Source: Candidatus Synechococcus calcipolaris G9 (GTDB taxonomy: Bacteria > Cyanobacteriota > Cyanobacteriia > Thermosynechococcales > Thermosynechococcaceae). From it: a DNA stretch of 64,000 bases. Both the position numbers and the translations under genes were made by a program. Below the pieces are notes generated by a model. That model saw only the letters and a program-made list of their open reading frames with translations, was not told the origin of the DNA and did no database searches. Shown one piece after another: positions 4,456 through 53,523 of this stretch (position 1 is the stretch's first letter; every line of letters begins with the position of its first letter). The stretch lies in contig NZ_JAKKUT010000002.1 of the NCBI RefSeq assembly GCF_029582805.1, forward strand, positions 1,016,001-1,080,000, given 5' to 3'.

Positions 4456-5973
4456 TTATGGCTTGTAGTTGCTCATGCCCGGGCCGGTCTTGTCGAAGAC
4501 GTTGAAATGTTCGTCCGGCATGATGGTGGCCACGCCGCCTTCGGGAGTTTCGATCAGGTCCTGCTCCAGGGTGACCACCCGAACTTTCCACCCTTCGGGA
4601 AGCTCCTTATACATGGCTGCTCCGTTGGCAATGAAGTCGTCGTAAGTGTGTTTGGGTTGAAGGCCGAGTTGGAAGCCCTTCATGATCCATGTGTTGCCAT
4701 CGGGATCGTCGAGAAGCACCACCGTAGTTCCCTTCTTCCAACCGATGCTGCTGGTCCGAGCAATGGTAATTGGTTGGTAGGGAGGGGTGGCTTCTTCCAC
4801 TCCGGCAGAACCGTCTCCCCCCATGTTCAATTGAGCAATCCATGATGCCGGGATCCCGTTGAAGTTCCGCTCCACCCCGACCGTGAATTCACTCCAGTCC
4901 GGCGTCCAAAACTTCGGGCCGTTGAGCGACACGCCAAGGACGCCAAATTCTTCTTTCAGCTTCTCGAAATCCAGTCCTTCGAGCAATTCCTGGGGAGACG
5001 TGTCCTTCGATGCTGGGATGCCCCGGGCACTAAACATGGAATTGTAAACCGCAGCGACTACCTCCCCAGTTTCGGGGGAACGACCCGCGAGCATCATCTC
5101 AATATAGCGAGTCCCATGCAGGTCGTCGAAACGCACACTCTTGGCATTCGCGCCATCGGACAACACATTGGCGGGTTTAGATGCAGCATGGTTGTACTGA
5201 TAGTTGCCCTCAAGCTCGTCGAGAACAATGGTGTTAGGCGGTTCAGAATCGGCGGCGGACGTCAGAGTCATGTCTTGCTCCAACTGGCGTGCCCTGAAAT
5301 TCCATCCGTTCGGCAAATTCAGGCGCTCGCCAAGGGTGGGCAGATTTTCGATGGTGTTATCGGGATCAATCTTCAGGGACAGACTGAACATGGTGTATAC
5401 GGCGCCCTCGGGGGTGATGAGCTCATACACCGTTTCGCCCGCGTTGAAGCTAAATGTATTGCTACGTTTGGAAACCAGCACCTGGTATGAAGGAAGGTTT
5501 CCGGCAACGGCCTTACTGAGGTCAGGGGTTTCGAAGATGCCGAAAACCCGATAGGGAATCGTGGCGACCACTCTCTCCTTGCAGCCATCCCAAGCCATCC
5601 CGGTTATGCCGTTCGTCACGAGACGGCGCGGACCATTGAAGAGGATGCCATCGCTCCCGTATTCCTTTTTCAAGGTGTCTGCATCCAGAGCACGGAAGCG
5701 GGCGTCCATCACGTCGTTGGATGCCTCAAGGTCCTTGCCGATGGAATTGTAGTAGAAGCCAACCCCACTGCCATCGGCCAGGCGGTTCATGAACAAAATT
5801 TCGTAGAAGGCCTTGCCGCGCCAGTTCTCTATCTGGATTGGGCAGGGATCCTTCAGTTCAACTTTCTGTTCGGCCAAGACTGCTGTAGTAGTGCCTATCA
5901 GCCCAAGCGCCAGTGCAGTTACTTGCACGGTCATGATTATCTTTCTCTTAATGCCGCTTCTCATTGTTTTCAT
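4456..5973 (-). CDS. Secreted DUF1254/DUF1214-associated protein with tandem domain
   Basis: A 505-aa exported protein of unknown function. An N-terminal signal peptide (MKTMRSGIKRK, hydrophobic stretch, AVLAEQ) is followed by two similar halves. Each half has a block near GxxLNGP(R/K) and a later block LP(N/E)GW then LEQD, so the mature protein looks like an internal duplication. The open frame runs back to 6135, overlapping the upstream gene, but ATG 5973 has AAGGAAAAGAT just before it and fits the signal peptide. It lies 74 bp downstream of the DUF1254/DUF1214 gene and is probably cotranscribed. No HIP1 sites occur, which suggests transfer. Confidence 0.75.
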   Translation of the reverse strand: MKTMRSGIKRKIIMTVQVTALALGLIGTTTAVLAEQKVELKDPCPIQIENWRGKAFYEILFMNRLADGSGVGFYYNSIGKDLEASNDVMDARFRALDADTLKKEYGSDGILFNGPRRLVTNGITGMAWDGCKERVVATIPYRVFGIFETPDLSKAVAGNLPSYQVLVSKRSNTFSFNAGETVYELITPEGAVYTMFSLSLKIDPDNTIENLPTLGERLNLPNGWNFRARQLEQDMTLTSAADSEPPNTIVLDELEGNYQYNHAASKPANVLSDGANAKSVRFDDLHGTRYIEMMLAGRSPETGEVVAAVYNSMFSARGIPASKDTSPQELLEGLDFEKLKEEFGVLGVSLNGPKFWTPDWSEFTVGVERNFNGIPASWIAQLNMGGDGSAGVEEATPPYQPITIARTSSIGWKKGTTVVLLDDPDGNTWIMKGFQLGLQPKHTYDDFIANGAAMYKELPEGWKVRVVTLEQDLIETPEGGVATIMPDEHFNVFDKTGPGMSNYKP

Positions 5974-6047
5974 TGATCTTTTCCTTGTTGATTTTCGCTT
6001 TGCAGCGATTTCAATAGCTTGATTACTACACTTGTTGATTATGCCTC

Positions 6048-7073
6048 TCACTGCACTGGCACTGCGGCTGGAAATTCCCACGATCCATCTATAACTTCCC
6101 GTTTTGGCTGATACATCCGTACGATGTAGCTCCAACCCGGAGTGATCGGGAGGTAGTTCGGCTGATCGGGGTCTCCCCCGAAGTGAACCGTCACTGACCC
6201 ATCAGGGTTCCGCTTGGCGGTCACGTTGTTTACCGAATAGGCATCCAGGTCGTTTTTTTCCATAAAGCCTTTGGCATTGTAAACGGTGATCGACGCAAAC
6301 CCGTCTACAGGAATCGCCTCCGATACCGTCAGAACATAGGGCGTCTTGCCGTCGTTTTTTTCGGGGACGACATTGACATAAACCGCATCTATATCCGGAT
6401 TCCCACCCCAGCCGTAAGCTGTGCCCAGCAGATGACTGATAGGATCAATCTCATTCTTGTTGCCGAACATGCCCTTGGCTGTAGGCCTGGTACCCGCAAG
6501 AATATTGATGGCATCGCGAACCTTCGCCAGGGAGTCTTTGTTCCAATCCGGTACCTCAAAAACCCCCGGAGTTTTCTGCCGGACTTCGATTTTGTCTTGT
6601 ATCTCGTTAGCGACTCTTATATCGGCCGGGTCACTTGCATCCACGAAGGTTCGAATGAGAATACACAGGTAGCGCGTTCCGGTATCCTCCTTTGTAAAGG
6701 TAAAGGTAGTTTTGCCATCGCCGTAATAGACCGCAAGCGTGTAGTGATCCTGATTGATGACCTGCATGGACTGAAACCGCCCCTTGCTGTCAGGCATTAC
6801 GATGGTGACCGGCTCGGTGAGATCGAAAACACCGATGGAATAGATTGTATCGCGATTCATGCGAATCACTTTCTGCTGATCAATTGGCGTCGGCTGACGA
6901 ATATGCAGGAATTTGCCGAAAGCACCCTGCTTGACGTAGGCACTTAGAGTTGTATCGGTCTCGGCGCGGACGTAGGTATCCACGGTGACTTTTTCGGATG
7001 CTGAACTCAGGACTGGATTGGGGAGTATCATTCCCAAAATCGCGAGAAAGAATAGTAATAGTGGTCGCTTCAT
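6048..7073 (-). CDS. DUF1254/DUF1214 domain secreted protein
   Basis: A 341-aa protein with a signal peptide (MKRPLLLFFLAIL...SSASE), then a region like DUF1254 (IRMNRDTIYSIGVFDL) and a C-terminal DUF1214-like part (YNAKGFMEKND, then NYLPITPGWSYIVRMYQP). These families are periplasmic or exported proteins of unclear role. It leads a two-gene unit with the 505-aa protein, flanked by inverted IS3-type ends and free of HIP1. AAAGGA sits unusually close to the ATG. A foreign origin is inferred from base pattern and flanks. Confidence 0.8.
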   Translation of the reverse strand: MKRPLLLFFLAILGMILPNPVLSSASEKVTVDTYVRAETDTTLSAYVKQGAFGKFLHIRQPTPIDQQKVIRMNRDTIYSIGVFDLTEPVTIVMPDSKGRFQSMQVINQDHYTLAVYYGDGKTTFTFTKEDTGTRYLCILIRTFVDASDPADIRVANEIQDKIEVRQKTPGVFEVPDWNKDSLAKVRDAINILAGTRPTAKGMFGNKNEIDPISHLLGTAYGWGGNPDIDAVYVNVVPEKNDGKTPYVLTVSEAIPVDGFASITVYNAKGFMEKNDLDAYSVNNVTAKRNPDGSVTVHFGGDPDQPNYLPITPGWSYIVRMYQPKREVIDGSWEFPAAVPVQ

Positions 7074-7291
7074 TCCTTTATGCCCCCTATTCGTTTTGTG
7101 CAGCCCAATGGATCCGAAATAAGCAGAACCCCGACTTGAATGATGAGATTGTATCAGACGACGAAGGGGTGAAGTGCAACTGAGTCCGAAGGATTCCGCT
7201 TTATCGAGTGGTTGGGCATCGCGATCGCAGTACCTTGATTAATCATACAGAATCCCTAACGACTGGATGAAGTATCGGGTCCATTGGGTGA

Positions 7292-7316
7292 TGACCCTGA
7301 CTGAAAAAAGTGGACA
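7292..7316 (-). repeat. IS3-type terminal repeat, copy C
   Basis: TGACCCTGACTGAAAAAAG followed by TGGACA. This is the left end of the IS remnant whose orfA starts 35 bp further on, which ties the whole repeat family to an IS3-type element. It is a perfect inverted match to copy B. Confidence 0.8.
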
Positions 7317-7351
7317 AACTCCAAGAGTCGCCAATGAAGGAGAATGTCCAA

Positions 7352-7562
7352 ATGACCCAAAAACCAAGACGAACATTTACTGCCGAACAAAAAGCTGATT
7401 TCTGTGACCATAGGTCAGTAGCTGTGGCAATTGTGAAACAGTCAGGCAGAGCCACATCAGCCAAGTCGCCCAGGAAATGGGTTTAACAGAAAGTGCCCTA
7501 CGCCAATGGGTCAAACAAGCAACCATTGACCAAGGTGGTGATAGCCAAGGGGCATTAACCAC
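7352..7562 (+). pseudogene. IS3-family orfA transposase remnant
   Basis: Starts ATG-ACC-CAA-AAA with RRTFTAEQKAD, typical of the HTH_Tnp_1/IS911 OrfA start. After frame disruption it continues as ISQVAQEMGLTESALRQWVKQA, the canonical leucine-zipper-side motif. It breaks off near 7562. There is no orfB, so the element cannot move by itself. Confidence 0.85.
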
Positions 7563-7628
7563 GCAGTCCTGCCGTCACGTCATGGGATACTCGATCGGTG
7601 GCGATCGCGTAGCGGAAGACCTGGGATA

Positions 7629-7736
7629 TTAGGGTTTTAACCGGTGGGCCGTCTCGATAGAGCCACGGGCAACAATGCGGTTCAGAACGGCTAAAACCTC
7701 TTGGGCTGTGATGTCAGTAATGGGGCGATCGCCGTG
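7629..7736 (-). pseudogene. P4-type tyrosine integrase remnant
   Basis: An open stretch of about 35 codons (GDRPITDITAQEVLAVLNRI then ARGSIETAHRLK) matches the core-binding segment of P4/CP4-57-type integrases. It ends at TAA 7629 and lacks both the DUF4102 start and the catalytic domain. It lies next to the IS3 remnant, so an integrated element once reached this spot. Confidence 0.75.
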
Positions 7737-7759
7737 GCTAGACAAACCCTTTCACTGAG

Positions 7760-8926
7760 TTAATCGGGCGAGTTATGAGAATCATCAACTGACCAAACCA
7801 TTGCATATCCTGGTCGTCTACTCACTCGATTGTTACTTTGTCGTAATATACTGGTCGGTCGGTGCCCCCGATCCCCGTCTCGCATGCTCCGATCAAACAG
7901 CAGTTCTCCACCAGACACCACCCTACTGGTTGAACTTAGACCCATGGCTAAACGATTGCCATCGGCATCAAATACCAACCGACTGGGTGGATTGCTCAGG
8001 TCAAACCGTTCTACCATTTGCCTTGTGGTGACATCGAAGATACCAATAGCTCCATTATTAAATCCCACCGCTAATCGATCGCCCATGGGACTGAAGGCTA
8101 CTGCGGTGACATCTTGTTCCTCCGGCTCCACTGCCATCACTAGGGAACCATCCGCGGTCTGCCAGACATAGGTTCCCTCCCGCCCCCGTACCGCAATCAG
8201 GGAGCCATCATCACTTAACTGTAGAAAATTGCGATCGCGACTTATTCGCGCCAAGGGTAAACTATCTTCCCGAATCACGACCCCATCCCTTAAGCGTTGG
8301 AGAGGCCAAACCATAATCCGTTTCTCCGCCTCATTATAGGCCGCCACGTAGTCGCCATTGGCGGATGTTGCAACCCGCATATAGCCATCCCCTTCCCGCA
8401 GCCATGCAATTAGGGTTCCATCCCCATGACGAACGGAAACCCCGGCCTCTTCTGCCACCAAAAAACCCTTGAGAAGGGGTACCCTAACAACATCATGAAT
8501 AGTCGTTTCCGCCTCTGGGGTCCAAATCCCCACAAGCTCTCCATCCCAATCAAAGACTTTGACGTTATTTTGATTGTAGGCAATGATTTCGTTGCGATCG
8601 CTGGCAATACTATAGCGATAATCCTTATCAACAGGATTTAAGCGTTTCAGGATTTTACCATTGGTAGCATCATGGATCAGAGTATGTTCACCACGACTCA
8701 ACAAACGGGAGTTGTCACCGGAAAAACCCCACACGGAAACCAAGTTTCGGCCATTGACTACACCGTATAAACAGCCAGGATAGTTGGAACAGGCTCCCAT
8801 GGCAGTGATGCGCGGGCCTACCACACTGGAAAAAAAGGCATAGATGATGAACCCAGGGATAATAATGCCACAGGGCATCATGGTGATCAGGAAGCAGGTT
8901 CGTAGGATTTGTTTGATGTTCGCCAT
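7760..8926 (-). CDS. Membrane-anchored WD40-repeat protein
   Basis: A protein of about 388 aa. Residues 8-40 form one hydrophobic membrane anchor. The rest shows WD40/beta-propeller strands, clearest at VTAVAFSPMGDRLAVGFNNGAIGIFD and RLVFDADGNRLAMGL. The propeller would face the periplasm or cytosol as a binding scaffold; no enzyme motif is seen. ATG 8926 (AAAGG upstream) is preferred over TTG 8941. HIP1 copies mark it as native DNA. It borders the mobile debris on its 3' side. Partner unknown. Confidence 0.75.
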   Translation of the reverse strand: MANIKQILRTCFLITMMPCGIIIPGFIIYAFFSSVVGPRITAMGACSNYPGCLYGVVNGRNLVSVWGFSGDNSRLLSRGEHTLIHDATNGKILKRLNPVDKDYRYSIASDRNEIIAYNQNNVKVFDWDGELVGIWTPEAETTIHDVVRVPLLKGFLVAEEAGVSVRHGDGTLIAWLREGDGYMRVATSANGDYVAAYNEAEKRIMVWPLQRLRDGVVIREDSLPLARISRDRNFLQLSDDGSLIAVRGREGTYVWQTADGSLVMAVEPEEQDVTAVAFSPMGDRLAVGFNNGAIGIFDVTTRQMVERFDLSNPPSRLVFDADGNRLAMGLSSTSRVVSGGELLFDRSMRDGDRGHRPTSILRQSNNRVSRRPGYAMVWSVDDSHNSPD

Positions 8927-50515: not shown

Positions 50516-51547
50516 CTAGCAATTGTTACTTGATACTCGACTAGGTGGCAAAAACAACACCAATGGAACATCGTCTGATAATGGGCCAGGGGGAGGCAGT
50601 TTAGCTTTTTGCTGTTGCAGCCAAGTGGACACCTCTAGGTTTTGGGGGTGGAACTCATGGACATAGTTAATGAAATCATCTACGGTGCAAGGCTTTTGCT
50701 TACCCCCTAGGCTTTGATGAAAATGATTATGGACGTTTTGGGCAATAGTGATGATATTGTCAACTGACCCAGCTAGGTGGGGATAATGGGCCGCAGCATA
50801 TAGGTGATGGGAAGCCAGATTAGGGGAGTTGATCACAGATGGTTTGAGTCCAGTGACAAGACAGGTATTTTTATCCCGTCGTCTGGCTTGCTTTTTGGCT
50901 TTCTCGATTTCTTTGCCTCGATTTAGAATCTTTTTAACAATGGTGTTGATGGTGGGTTGGATTTCATCGCCCATCTGTTTACACCATTCCTGCCGATTCC
51001 TCCTCACTAAGCTTTGACTAAATTCTTTAGATAGGATCAGAATCCCTGACAAGGAATAGTAACGAATGTCTTTATCAATGTCATGGTAATAGTCTTGACC
51101 CACAATCAAGGACGGTTCGGCTTGAGCCGCCATCCTCCTGAGGAAGTCACGCCGAGTTGCAAAAATAGCTACAATATCGCGTTCATTGAGGAAAAATCTG
51201 TCACTTCTACGGACTAAGGACGAACTATTGTAGAGGATGCTTTGATGGATGAAGGCTCGTCTAACGTCTTTTTTGAATTGTTTTAGAAGTTGCCGAAACC
51301 AGCTCAGGAAACCCTTATCCCGTTGTTTGTCTTTGAAGGCAATGTAAGAGGCGATCGCATAGGCTCCGGTGTCGGAATAATCCCGTAAGCCGGTGGTTTG
51401 GTTGATCACTCGATAATCACGATCTGGGCGTAATTCCCATCTGTCGTTAGGATCGCTATCGAAAAAATCTTGGATGTCCAGCAACTCTTGTTCCGTGATG
51501 TTAAGAACCTTGATTAGTTTTTCAGCCGTGATCCAGACTTTGGGCAT
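50516..51547 (-). CDS. HNH-like nuclease protein
   Basis: A 343-aa protein. The C-terminal part (about 235-300) shows an HNH-like core: ARRRDKNTCLVTGLK, then NLASHHLYAAAHYPHL and DNIITIAQNVHNHFHQ, with two His, an Asn and a last His. The long N-terminus is charged and unassigned. TAATG overlaps it with the J-domain gene upstream, so the two are made together. A homing, repair or defence nuclease are options; none is proven. Confidence 0.75.
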   Translation of the reverse strand: MPKVWITAEKLIKVLNITEQELLDIQDFFDSDPNDRWELRPDRDYRVINQTTGLRDYSDTGAYAIASYIAFKDKQRDKGFLSWFRQLLKQFKKDVRRAFIHQSILYNSSSLVRRSDRFFLNERDIVAIFATRRDFLRRMAAQAEPSLIVGQDYYHDIDKDIRYYSLSGILILSKEFSQSLVRRNRQEWCKQMGDEIQPTINTIVKKILNRGKEIEKAKKQARRRDKNTCLVTGLKPSVINSPNLASHHLYAAAHYPHLAGSVDNIITIAQNVHNHFHQSLGGKQKPCTVDDFINYVHEFHPQNLEVSTWLQQQKAKLPPPGPLSDDVPLVLFLPPSRVSSNNC

Positions 51548-52095
51548 TAGCCTTTCCCCAATAGACTCCGGTAGAATACATTTAGGCGATTGAAAATGTC
51601 TGGATTCCCCGTGGGCTGGTCAGGGTGGTAGGTTTTGCTGAGTTCCCGGTAGGCTGCCTTGATGTCGTTGTCTGTGGCAGTATGCCGGTCTAGTCCAAAC
51701 ACTCGCCAGGGCAAATCGTAGTCGAAAATGTTGATGCCATTAATGCAATTGTCCCCGGTCACGCCGTCTTCATCCGGTAGAACCCCGATCCAACGACGAT
51801 AGATTTTTTTCCAAGATTCCTTCTGGCTGAGGCTCAAATTCATGCCATCGGTGGCCATCTGGAATGAACCCGACGCCTTTAATTTTGGGGTTGAACTAAC
51901 TTGAAAGTGTCGATAAACTGCTTTTTTGAGTTCAGGCAACGTTAATTGTAGTTTTTTGCCTTTGACAAAGGAGGCAAACTGAATAAGGATCGCCTTATCA
52001 TAGCCGTGTAGGTTAACGAGTCTATCTATTTCTGCTTGAATGGAACTGACACTGGGGGCGCGTGGCATTGTTTTCCATGGATTAACTGGCTCCAT
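51547..52095 (-). CDS. J-domain protein with C-terminal J domain
   Basis: A 182-aa protein with an uncharacterised N-terminal about 115 residues and a J domain at the end (WRVFGLDRHTATDNDIKAAYRELSKTYHPDQ) with intact HPD. It would recruit Hsp70/DnaK. The J domain at the C-terminus is unusual. The start may be ATG 52095 (14-nt overlap with cbiQ stop) or ATG 52068. Coupled to the HNH-like gene, so it may deliver or load that protein. Confidence 0.8.
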   Translation of the reverse strand: MEPVNPWKTMPRAPSVSSIQAEIDRLVNLHGYDKAILIQFASFVKGKKLQLTLPELKKAVYRHFQVSSTPKLKASGSFQMATDGMNLSLSQKESWKKIYRRWIGVLPDEDGVTGDNCINGINIFDYDLPWRVFGLDRHTATDNDIKAAYRELSKTYHPDQPTGNPDIFNRLNVFYRSLLGKG

Positions 52096-52843
52096 AGTAG
52101 TACATTACAATTCCCACCAGCCAACAAACACCAATGCCCAAGCCATGGTAAGAATACAGCCGAGGATAGGTGCGTTTTTGCTGTCGCGATCGCAGCCCAT
52201 ACCCCCGTAACCGCATGGCCCGATAGACCTGTTCAGAGCGATCGTAACTGCGAATTAAAAAAGTGCCAATTAAGGCCGCAATGCGCCCCAACCGCCGCCA
52301 ATGGGGACGAAACCCCCGCAACATCATGGACTGCTGCATCCGCACCAACATCGGCCGCAACTCAAAAATATATCGATAGCTCAACACCAACACATCCGTC
52401 AGAAAGGGGGGGATGCCAAAGGTACGTAAAACCTGGAGCCATGCTGAAAATGTGGTCGTTTCCAGTAACACCATGGCAAGGGTGGCAAGGGTGATCAACC
52501 GCCCCGCCAAAACCAGAGCCGCCCGCAATCCCTCCCAAAAAATTACCAGTCCCCCCCACCGCAACCATGGGGTTTCCCCCCCCTGAAACAACAGGAGTAA
52601 TCCTAGCCCTAGGAAAAATACCGCCAGCACCGCCAGTCGTTGCCACCATCGCCGCCACGAGAGACCCGCACCCCCATACACCAGTGCCATTCCCCCCAGG
52701 GCGATCGCCAACACCGATAGGCGATCGATCGCCGCAATCACAAAAAGAAGCGGCAACAGACCCAAGACCTTACATTCAGGCTGCCAACGATGAAAAATCG
52801 ACATACCATAGAACATATCGCCCCACAGGTTCCCCCATGCCAT
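52082..52843 (-). CDS. Energy-coupling factor transporter T component (CbiQ/EcfT)
   Basis: A membrane T subunit of an ECF importer (cobalt, biotin or vitamin type). Signature blocks: MMLRGFRPHWRR and YRAMRLRGYGLRSRQ, the two Ala/Gly-Arg-Gly motifs that contact the ATPases. ATG 52843, 52816 or 52804 could be the start; the frame extends to 52885 but would overlap the divergent gene. The S component and ATPases are elsewhere. Confidence 0.88.
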   Translation of the reverse strand: MAWGNLWGDMFYGMSIFHRWQPECKVLGLLPLLFVIAAIDRLSVLAIALGGMALVYGGAGLSWRRWWQRLAVLAVFFLGLGLLLLFQGGETPWLRWGGLVIFWEGLRAALVLAGRLITLATLAMVLLETTTFSAWLQVLRTFGIPPFLTDVLVLSYRYIFELRPMLVRMQQSMMLRGFRPHWRRLGRIAALIGTFLIRSYDRSEQVYRAMRLRGYGLRSRQQKRTYPRLYSYHGLGIGVCWLVGIVMYYYGAS

Positions 52844-53523
52844 GATCAAGACAATTAGTTTATTTACCCTTTGGTTGGCATTCATGGGCTATGGTTTTTT
52901 CCTGGCTCCACCGGATCACCCCGATACCTTGGATCTGATTGGGCGACTGATCCGCGGCCCCTGGCAGGGCATTAACCCCCTAGTCATTGCCTTATTTAAT
53001 CTGATGGGGATTTGGCCGTTCATTTATACGGCGGTTGTGCTAGTGGATGGCCGCGGACAAAAATTACCTGGGTGGCTCTTTGCCGCAGGTGGCTTTTTGT
53101 TGGGAGCCTTTGCCCTCATTCCCTACCTAGCCCTTCGTCGCCCTAATCCGACGTTTCAGGGCCCCCTAGACTGGGGATTGCGGATATGGGAATGGCGCGG
53201 TACGGGTATTCTGCTGCTACTGGCAACAGTTGGGTTGGTGGGCTATGGTGTCACCCAGGGCAATTGGGCTGATTTTTGGCATCAATGGCAGACCCGCCGC
53301 TTTATTCACCTAATGAGCATCGTATTTTTGTCTACTGACCCTACTATTTCCCTTACTTTTGGGGGATGATCTGGCTCGACGACAACCCAGCTTCCAGGGG
53401 CTAGGGGTCTTGGCCAGTTTCCCCCTTTTTGGCCCATTACTGTATCTATGTTTACGTCCTAGGCTCATTAACACCGATAAAGTGTATCATGAGATACAAA
53501 ATACAGGGCCACAATCCGTTTAA
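52842..53523 (+). pseudogene. Cyanobacterial membrane protein with frameshift
   Basis: Frame A (52842-53369) gives a three- or four-helix protein (SLFTLWLAFMGYGFFLAPPDH, GINPLVIALFNLMGIWPFIY). At about 53322 one extra T seems to shift it: frame B continues FCLLTLLFPLLLGDDLARR, then GPLLYLCLRP, to TAA 53521. Removing one base restores a 226-residue protein. It is of the type conserved in cyanobacteria, often listed as a DUF2834-like protein (name unsure). It is either a pseudogene or a sequencing error. Confidence 0.7.
53484..53497 (+). promoter_or_regulatory. NtcA binding site (GTA-N8-TAC)
   Basis: GTATCATGAGATAC, a perfect palindromic NtcA box 164 bp before the ntcA start. ntcA is autoregulated in other cyanobacteria, so this fits its own promoter. 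It lies inside the tail of the frame-shifted gene. I see only a weak -10 (TTTAAC region) at the proper spacing. Confidence 0.75.

Follow-up and report, generated by a model that had tools for sequence, protein, structure and literature searches.

Why should a cyanobacterium join the gene for a co-chaperone to that for a DNA-cutting enzyme? The question is raised by two genes on the minus strand of a 64,000-nucleotide stretch of the Candidatus Synechococcus calcipolaris G9 genome (NCBI RefSeq assembly GCF_029582805.1, contig NZ_JAKKUT010000002.1, positions 1,016,001 to 1,080,000; hereafter the window), where cbiQ precedes a gene whose product has a J domain at its C-terminus, and this gene in turn precedes one for an HNH nuclease (Table 1). 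A preliminary description, made from the sequence alone, had noted a TAATG junction between the two genes and considered the pairing unusual, perhaps a self-standing defence, repair or mobile module. Both open reading frames were confirmed, with the one-base stop/start overlap, and the pair turned out to be conserved across cyanobacteria in the company of no conserved neighbours, so that its description as an unusual and self-standing module holds. We propose that it is a mobile cyanobacterial two-gene conflict module, in which a dedicated J co-chaperone is translationally coupled to a DNA-targeted HNH nuclease, a reading whose chances we regard as evenly balanced.

That the two genes form a functional module is itself virtually certain. 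In an even set of 386 cyanobacterial genomes sampled for co-occurrence, the HNH gene was found in 32, the J gene in 31 and both in 28 (Fisher test, p=5e-35). The four HNH-only cases are all fragments and two of the three J-only cases are full-length; no full-length HNH gene was found in this set without a full-length J gene. When about 85,000 species genomes were scanned with the J alignment as query, 47 J loci were returned, all of them cyanobacterial, and at 37 of them a full-length HNH gene lies directly downstream, the remainder being decayed or situated at contig ends. The median distance between the two genes of the 41 full pairs is 2 bp, and in 88% it does not exceed 6 bp, overlapping genes counted among these. 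The co-occurrence search that the preliminary description had called for thus found order and spacing kept in dozens of genomes, far beyond chance. A genome-wide scan that used only the HNH protein returned nothing, its peptide patterns being too variable, whereas the J alignment succeeded. The pair was absent from all known or cultivated phages, plasmids, viral contigs and other phyla searched.

Within the family of the window's genome, wherever a genome has both a J and an HNH gene, the two lie together. The window's genome itself (99.97% complete) carries a second, diverged pair in the same order on another contig (G000:C8:81161-82617; L002, L020), with 55% identity in the J protein and 32% in the HNH protein, lying between peroxiredoxin and DM13-domain genes; a carboxysome ccmM-like gene is located a few kb away. 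A further J-domain "stub" within the window had been taken as a hint of more such genes, yet this fragment, about 60 bp from a tRNA-Val gene, contains the start of a J domain (helices I-II) and no HPD, and is a decayed J piece outside the J-HNH family; the actual second pair is the one on the other contig.

The nuclease assignment was examined by alignment and structure prediction. The AlphaFold model of the HNH protein comprises a pair of winged helices, a long helix and an HNH domain, and among 40 aligned HNH proteins H247, H248, N264, H277 and C229 are invariant, with H273 kept in 97%. The HNH domain matches the folds of VcaM4I (Z 6.8, residues 202-317), EcoKMcrA (Z 6.7), Cap5 (Z 6.5) and many Cas9 HNH domains (Z about 5.5). 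Single Z values are middling, and the assignment convinces because most structure matches of this stretch are HNH enzymes and because it carries the invariant residues. Both the "HNH-like" label of the preliminary description and its motif, for which structural matching had been named in advance as the point of refutation, are therefore sustained by fold and alignment, though the domain is invisible to Pfam and NCBIfam: the window protein has no significant match there, Pfam HNH models included, and only 5 of the 40 homologues match PF13391 (HNH_2) at E<0.01. Its only sequence-profile matches are to PHROG HNH families (phrog_119, E=2.9e-6). Foldseek searches with the full model gave no significant whole-chain match, as expected of a multi-domain protein, and an HNH-profile search of solved structures gave chance matches only. 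Winged helix 1 matches RacA (Z 6.8), NmlR (Z 6.2) and CbpM (3ucs_B, Z 5.3), and winged helix 2 matches 4ye7 (Z 6.4) and viral proteins of BRO/KilA-N type. We consider it quite likely that the protein is a catalytically active DNase.

The C-terminal J domain is likewise real, with a PF00226 (DnaJ) match above the gathering score (E=5.5e-8, 33.2 bits against 27.8), an HPD motif and a J fold in the AlphaFold model. Residues 126-182 of the model superpose on the DnaK-bound J domain of DnaJ (5nro) with Z 6.9 and 2.2 A over 56 residues, and the structure matches of this segment are mostly J domains. Since the HPD motif is conserved, use of DnaK is implied. Ahead of the J domain lies a family-specific region whose near-invariant residues in 41 J proteins are W95, Y99, R100, L106, P107, E109, C117, I118, N119 and G120, followed by P129 and W130. 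The ATG at 52095 listed as the J start falls within cbiQ, and translation probably begins at the internal ATG at 52068, giving a protein of 173 aa, because homologues begin there.

Table 1. Features of the J-HNH locus and of the J-domain fragment, in window coordinates (ORF, open reading frame; aa, amino acids; pLDDT, predicted local distance difference test; pTM, predicted template modelling score).
Feature	Coordinates	Strand	Basis or remark
cbiQ	52082-52885	-	gene preceding J gene
J-domain protein gene, 182 aa as listed	51547..52095	-	ORF; Pfam; 41-homologue alignment; AlphaFold pLDDT 87.5
Pre-J region, residues 95-128, WxxlYRxxxxxLPxE....CINGINIFxY	51712..51813	-	alignment; also in viral homologues
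J domain, residues 129-179	51559..51711	-	Pfam, alignment, fold match
HPD motif, H157-P158-D159	51619-51627	-	invariant in 41 homologues
TAATG stop/start overlap of J and HNH genes	51545..51549	-	ORF coordinates; tight or overlapping junctions in homologues
Tandem winged-helix HNH nuclease gene, 343 aa	50516..51547	-	ORF; PHROG; AlphaFold pLDDT 92.9, pTM 0.82
Winged helix 1, MerR-like, residues 3-77	51317..51541	-	AlphaFold model, fold matches; allele-swapped in Microcystis homologues
Winged helix 2, BRO-N/antirepressor-like, residues 105-180	51008..51235	-	AlphaFold model, fold matches
HNH nuclease domain, residues 205-320	50588..50935	-	alignment, fold matches
HNH residue H247	50807-50809	-	40-sequence alignment
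HNH residue H248	50804-50806	-	40-sequence alignment
HNH residue N264	50756-50758	-	40-sequence alignment
HNH residue H273	50729-50731	-	40-sequence alignment
HNH residue H277	50717-50719	-	40-sequence alignment
J-domain fragment ("stub"), 37 aa	17698-17811	-	PF00226 E=7e-4, below cut-off

How the module has evolved was followed through its homologues. The J and HNH trees show broadly the same groups, with three lineages in one Prochloron genome and two in that of the window, and the genes neighbouring the pairs are not shared among genomes. Apart from winged helix 1, Microcystis copies differ by only a few per cent, and they stand at three or more right-hand and many left-hand flanks, the relocated modules having only an upstream leader of about 135-160 bp in common. 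The mobile part of the earlier suggestion is supported by this relocation and by the varied neighbours, while repair found no support. Winged helix 1 itself occurs in Microcystis as two allele classes, differing at 20 of 47 synonymous and 35 of 193 nonsynonymous sites, and the changes fall on the helix-turn-helix and the wing; we read it as a swapped recognition part. Between Microcystis pairs the C-terminal half of J has only 0-2 nonsynonymous changes, whereas HNH accumulates them. In most close pairs from other genera both genes have a ratio of nonsynonymous to synonymous rates (dN/dS) below 1 and, judged from these substitution patterns, both are under purifying selection; mean pairwise identity is 61% for the J domain and 42% for the HNH domain.

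Other observations concern single loci and their surroundings. In a mosaic between G114 and G098 (L093/L096 with L120/L125) the two ends of J are near-identical (synonymous divergence about 0.2) but saturation is reached in its middle part and throughout the HNH gene, a second pointer to recombination within the module. Upstream of J by about 110-150 bp, Microcystis loci L051-L056, L076, L089, L154 and L156 carry the palindromes CCACTTGACAAAGTGG and CCAC(AGCA/TGCT)GTGG, which overlap a TTGACA-18-TATTAA promoter-like site, the loop of the second occurring in both orientations. Across the family 18 palindromes were counted upstream of J against 6 in shuffles, and a common operator sought there was not found, as the palindromes are not conserved between groups. 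In the upstream flank of one Microcystis copy (L052, query 457-600), a repeat with dozens of copies in Microcystis genomes ends at the left border of the module. An intact J gene of the family without a partner is present at L137 (G142, 5589-7964), with an Rpn/PD-(D/E)XK-like fragment on one side and a HEPN-MNT-like gene pair on the other, as judged by inspecting the translation. Orthologues of cbiQ are present in some relatives and were not found in G016, which carries both pairs.

How might such a pair work? Coupling and gene order imply that J is synthesised before the nuclease and in proportion to it, and the coupling would fix the ratio of J to nuclease. J would bind the nuclease protein and hand it through its HPD motif to the host DnaK, which would gate how the protein folds, forms oligomers or binds DNA. 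The two winged helices would aim the nuclease at DNA, winged helix 1 serving as an exchangeable specificity part, and infection or stress would disturb the chaperone loop, upon which the nuclease would cut phage, invading or own DNA. By analogy, such a mechanism is made reasonable by the binding of CbpM to a J domain and by the dependence of bNACHT25 on DnaJ, both described below. Because J is kept without HNH and never the reverse, and these are few events, we lean slightly towards J mainly restraining the nuclease over activating it. A conflict role in the wider sense, defence or toxin-antitoxin-like, is what we would expect with somewhat better confidence, most likely directed against phages or foreign DNA, although the evidence hints at defence only indirectly.

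Several observations weigh against this proposal. The window pair and most of its homologues sit among housekeeping genes outside defence islands, with only a few methylase, PIN or Uma2 genes among the flanking genes of the pairs, and no model of PADLOC-DB 2.0 is matched by either window protein; some HNH homologues weakly match the models for PtuB and for type II restriction endonucleases (REase_II). A clean empty site expected of a mobile unit was not found when the joined flanks of the L052 Microcystis copy were searched: both flanks occur in relatives but are non-adjacent (18 kb apart in G328). The viral J homologue, described below, may be a virion-assembly J protein rather than a counter-defence one.

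Among the competing explanations, a toxin-antitoxin-like unit, with HNH as DNase toxin, J as the antitoxin that sequesters it via DnaK and any anti-phage action secondary, is somewhat unlikely, though the likeliest of them. The J gene comes first and is coupled, a full-length J occurs without an intact HNH in G050, G142 and G433/L055 and a full-length HNH never without J, and in Microcystis HNH gathers nonsynonymous changes of which the C-terminal half of J shows very few. That said, the asymmetry of loss is weak by itself because few independent events underlie it, HNH is under purifying selection outside Microcystis, and the J domain is the more conserved of the two, whereas antitoxins are usually less conserved than their toxins. 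A self-mobilising element, in which HNH would act on its own as a homing or transposition nuclease, equipped with DNA-binding domains, and J would aid its folding, could draw on the varied Microcystis positions with their sharp left boundary, the patchy distribution and the phage HNH enzymes that are the nearest sequence families. We find it improbable, as no insertion site or neighbour recurs, flanks varying from genome to genome and also inside Microcystis, neither ends nor a target duplication were recognised, the pair is missing from the phages, plasmids and viral contigs searched, and J has been under long-term purifying selection.

A similarly doubtful alternative takes the pair for a relative of CbpA-CbpM, its MerR-like domain binding the partner J domain or the promoter and its HNH domain processing or repairing DNA under stress. 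The J domain of CbpA is bound by CbpM, a MerR-like protein whose gene lies downstream of cbpA (PMC4063869), and the E. coli CbpA-CbpM operon and related HspR regulators have, like the present pair, a J gene followed by that of a MerR-like protein. Residues 3-77 match MerR-type winged helices, CbpM and RacA included, and the Microcystis palindromes overlap the promoter-like site upstream of J. However, the CbpM match is no closer than those to other MerR proteins and no CbpM family match by sequence was found for the HNH protein or its homologues; the exchange of winged helix 1 in Microcystis while J hardly changes misfits a J-binding surface; and occurrence in only about 8% of cyanobacterial genomes speaks against a housekeeping role. 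The present pair differs further in that a single polypeptide combines the MerR-like part with another winged helix and an HNH nuclease, and in that the J domain is C-terminal in a protein without the substrate domains of CbpA.

Returning to the conflict module that we prefer, its parts can be compared with known systems. VcaM4I, EcoKMcrA, Cap5 of CBASS (cyclic-oligonucleotide-based anti-phage signalling systems) and Septu PtuB have the HNH fold and catalytic residues in common with the HNH protein, which unlike them has no SAVED, SRA-like, ATPase or methylase partner, its partner being a J-domain protein and its N-terminus carrying two winged helices. For toxin-antitoxin-chaperone (TAC) systems with SecB-like chaperones, control of a toxic effector by the chaperone encoded alongside it has been discussed (PMC7159879); that likeness extends to a chaperone encoded beside its effector, while here there are two genes and not three, the effector is a nuclease, and the J co-chaperone presumably acts via Hsp70 and not SecB. 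Phage sensing by bNACHT25 requires host DnaJ (PMC12169576), so that a defence response there also depends on a J-domain protein, a general host one, whereas the present J is dedicated and encoded in the module. In the open-access literature and older defence catalogues we found no paper that brings J-domain and HNH together with cyanobacteria or defence in the sense meant here, and the module is unnamed in the libraries and literature searched.

A wider J alignment also matched uncultivated viral contigs (L206-L209, then L210 and L211, some contigs seen twice). The viral J protein has the pre-J motif in common (WEKLYR...INGIDI...FRPWQVFGLNPKTATRDDV...HPD) and scores 84-90 bits, against 23-32 bits for the five other J proteins of the genome. 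In L211 its gene follows those of terminase, sigma factor, portal and head protease and precedes that of a tail protein, and the relatives of the L208 tail protein are from Synechococcus and Prochlorococcus siphoviruses; these viruses appear to infect cyanobacteria. No HNH partner lies beside the viral J gene in the contigs examined, and cultivated phages gave no homologue of the protein at E 1e-3/1e-4. Several structural-cluster products of L206-L211, J included, share the motif YxRDxxGRFxSTPGGG at their N-termini, which may serve as a virion or packaging signal. The viral J may be a counter-defence mimic, and the fuller picture of an immune module gated by its own J through host Hsp70, to which cyanophages answer with a viral J decoy or inhibitor, is speculative and rather unlikely as a whole.

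Chaperones are increasingly found inside bacterial immune circuits, as with DnaJ for bNACHT25 and SecB in TAC, and no description of a dedicated J-domain partner for a nuclease was found in the papers and libraries searched. If our proposal is true, the pair would offer a testable two-gene system for the Hsp70 control of a DNA-cutting effector, and the viral J homologue would be a direct handle on a possible counter-defence in cyanobacteria.
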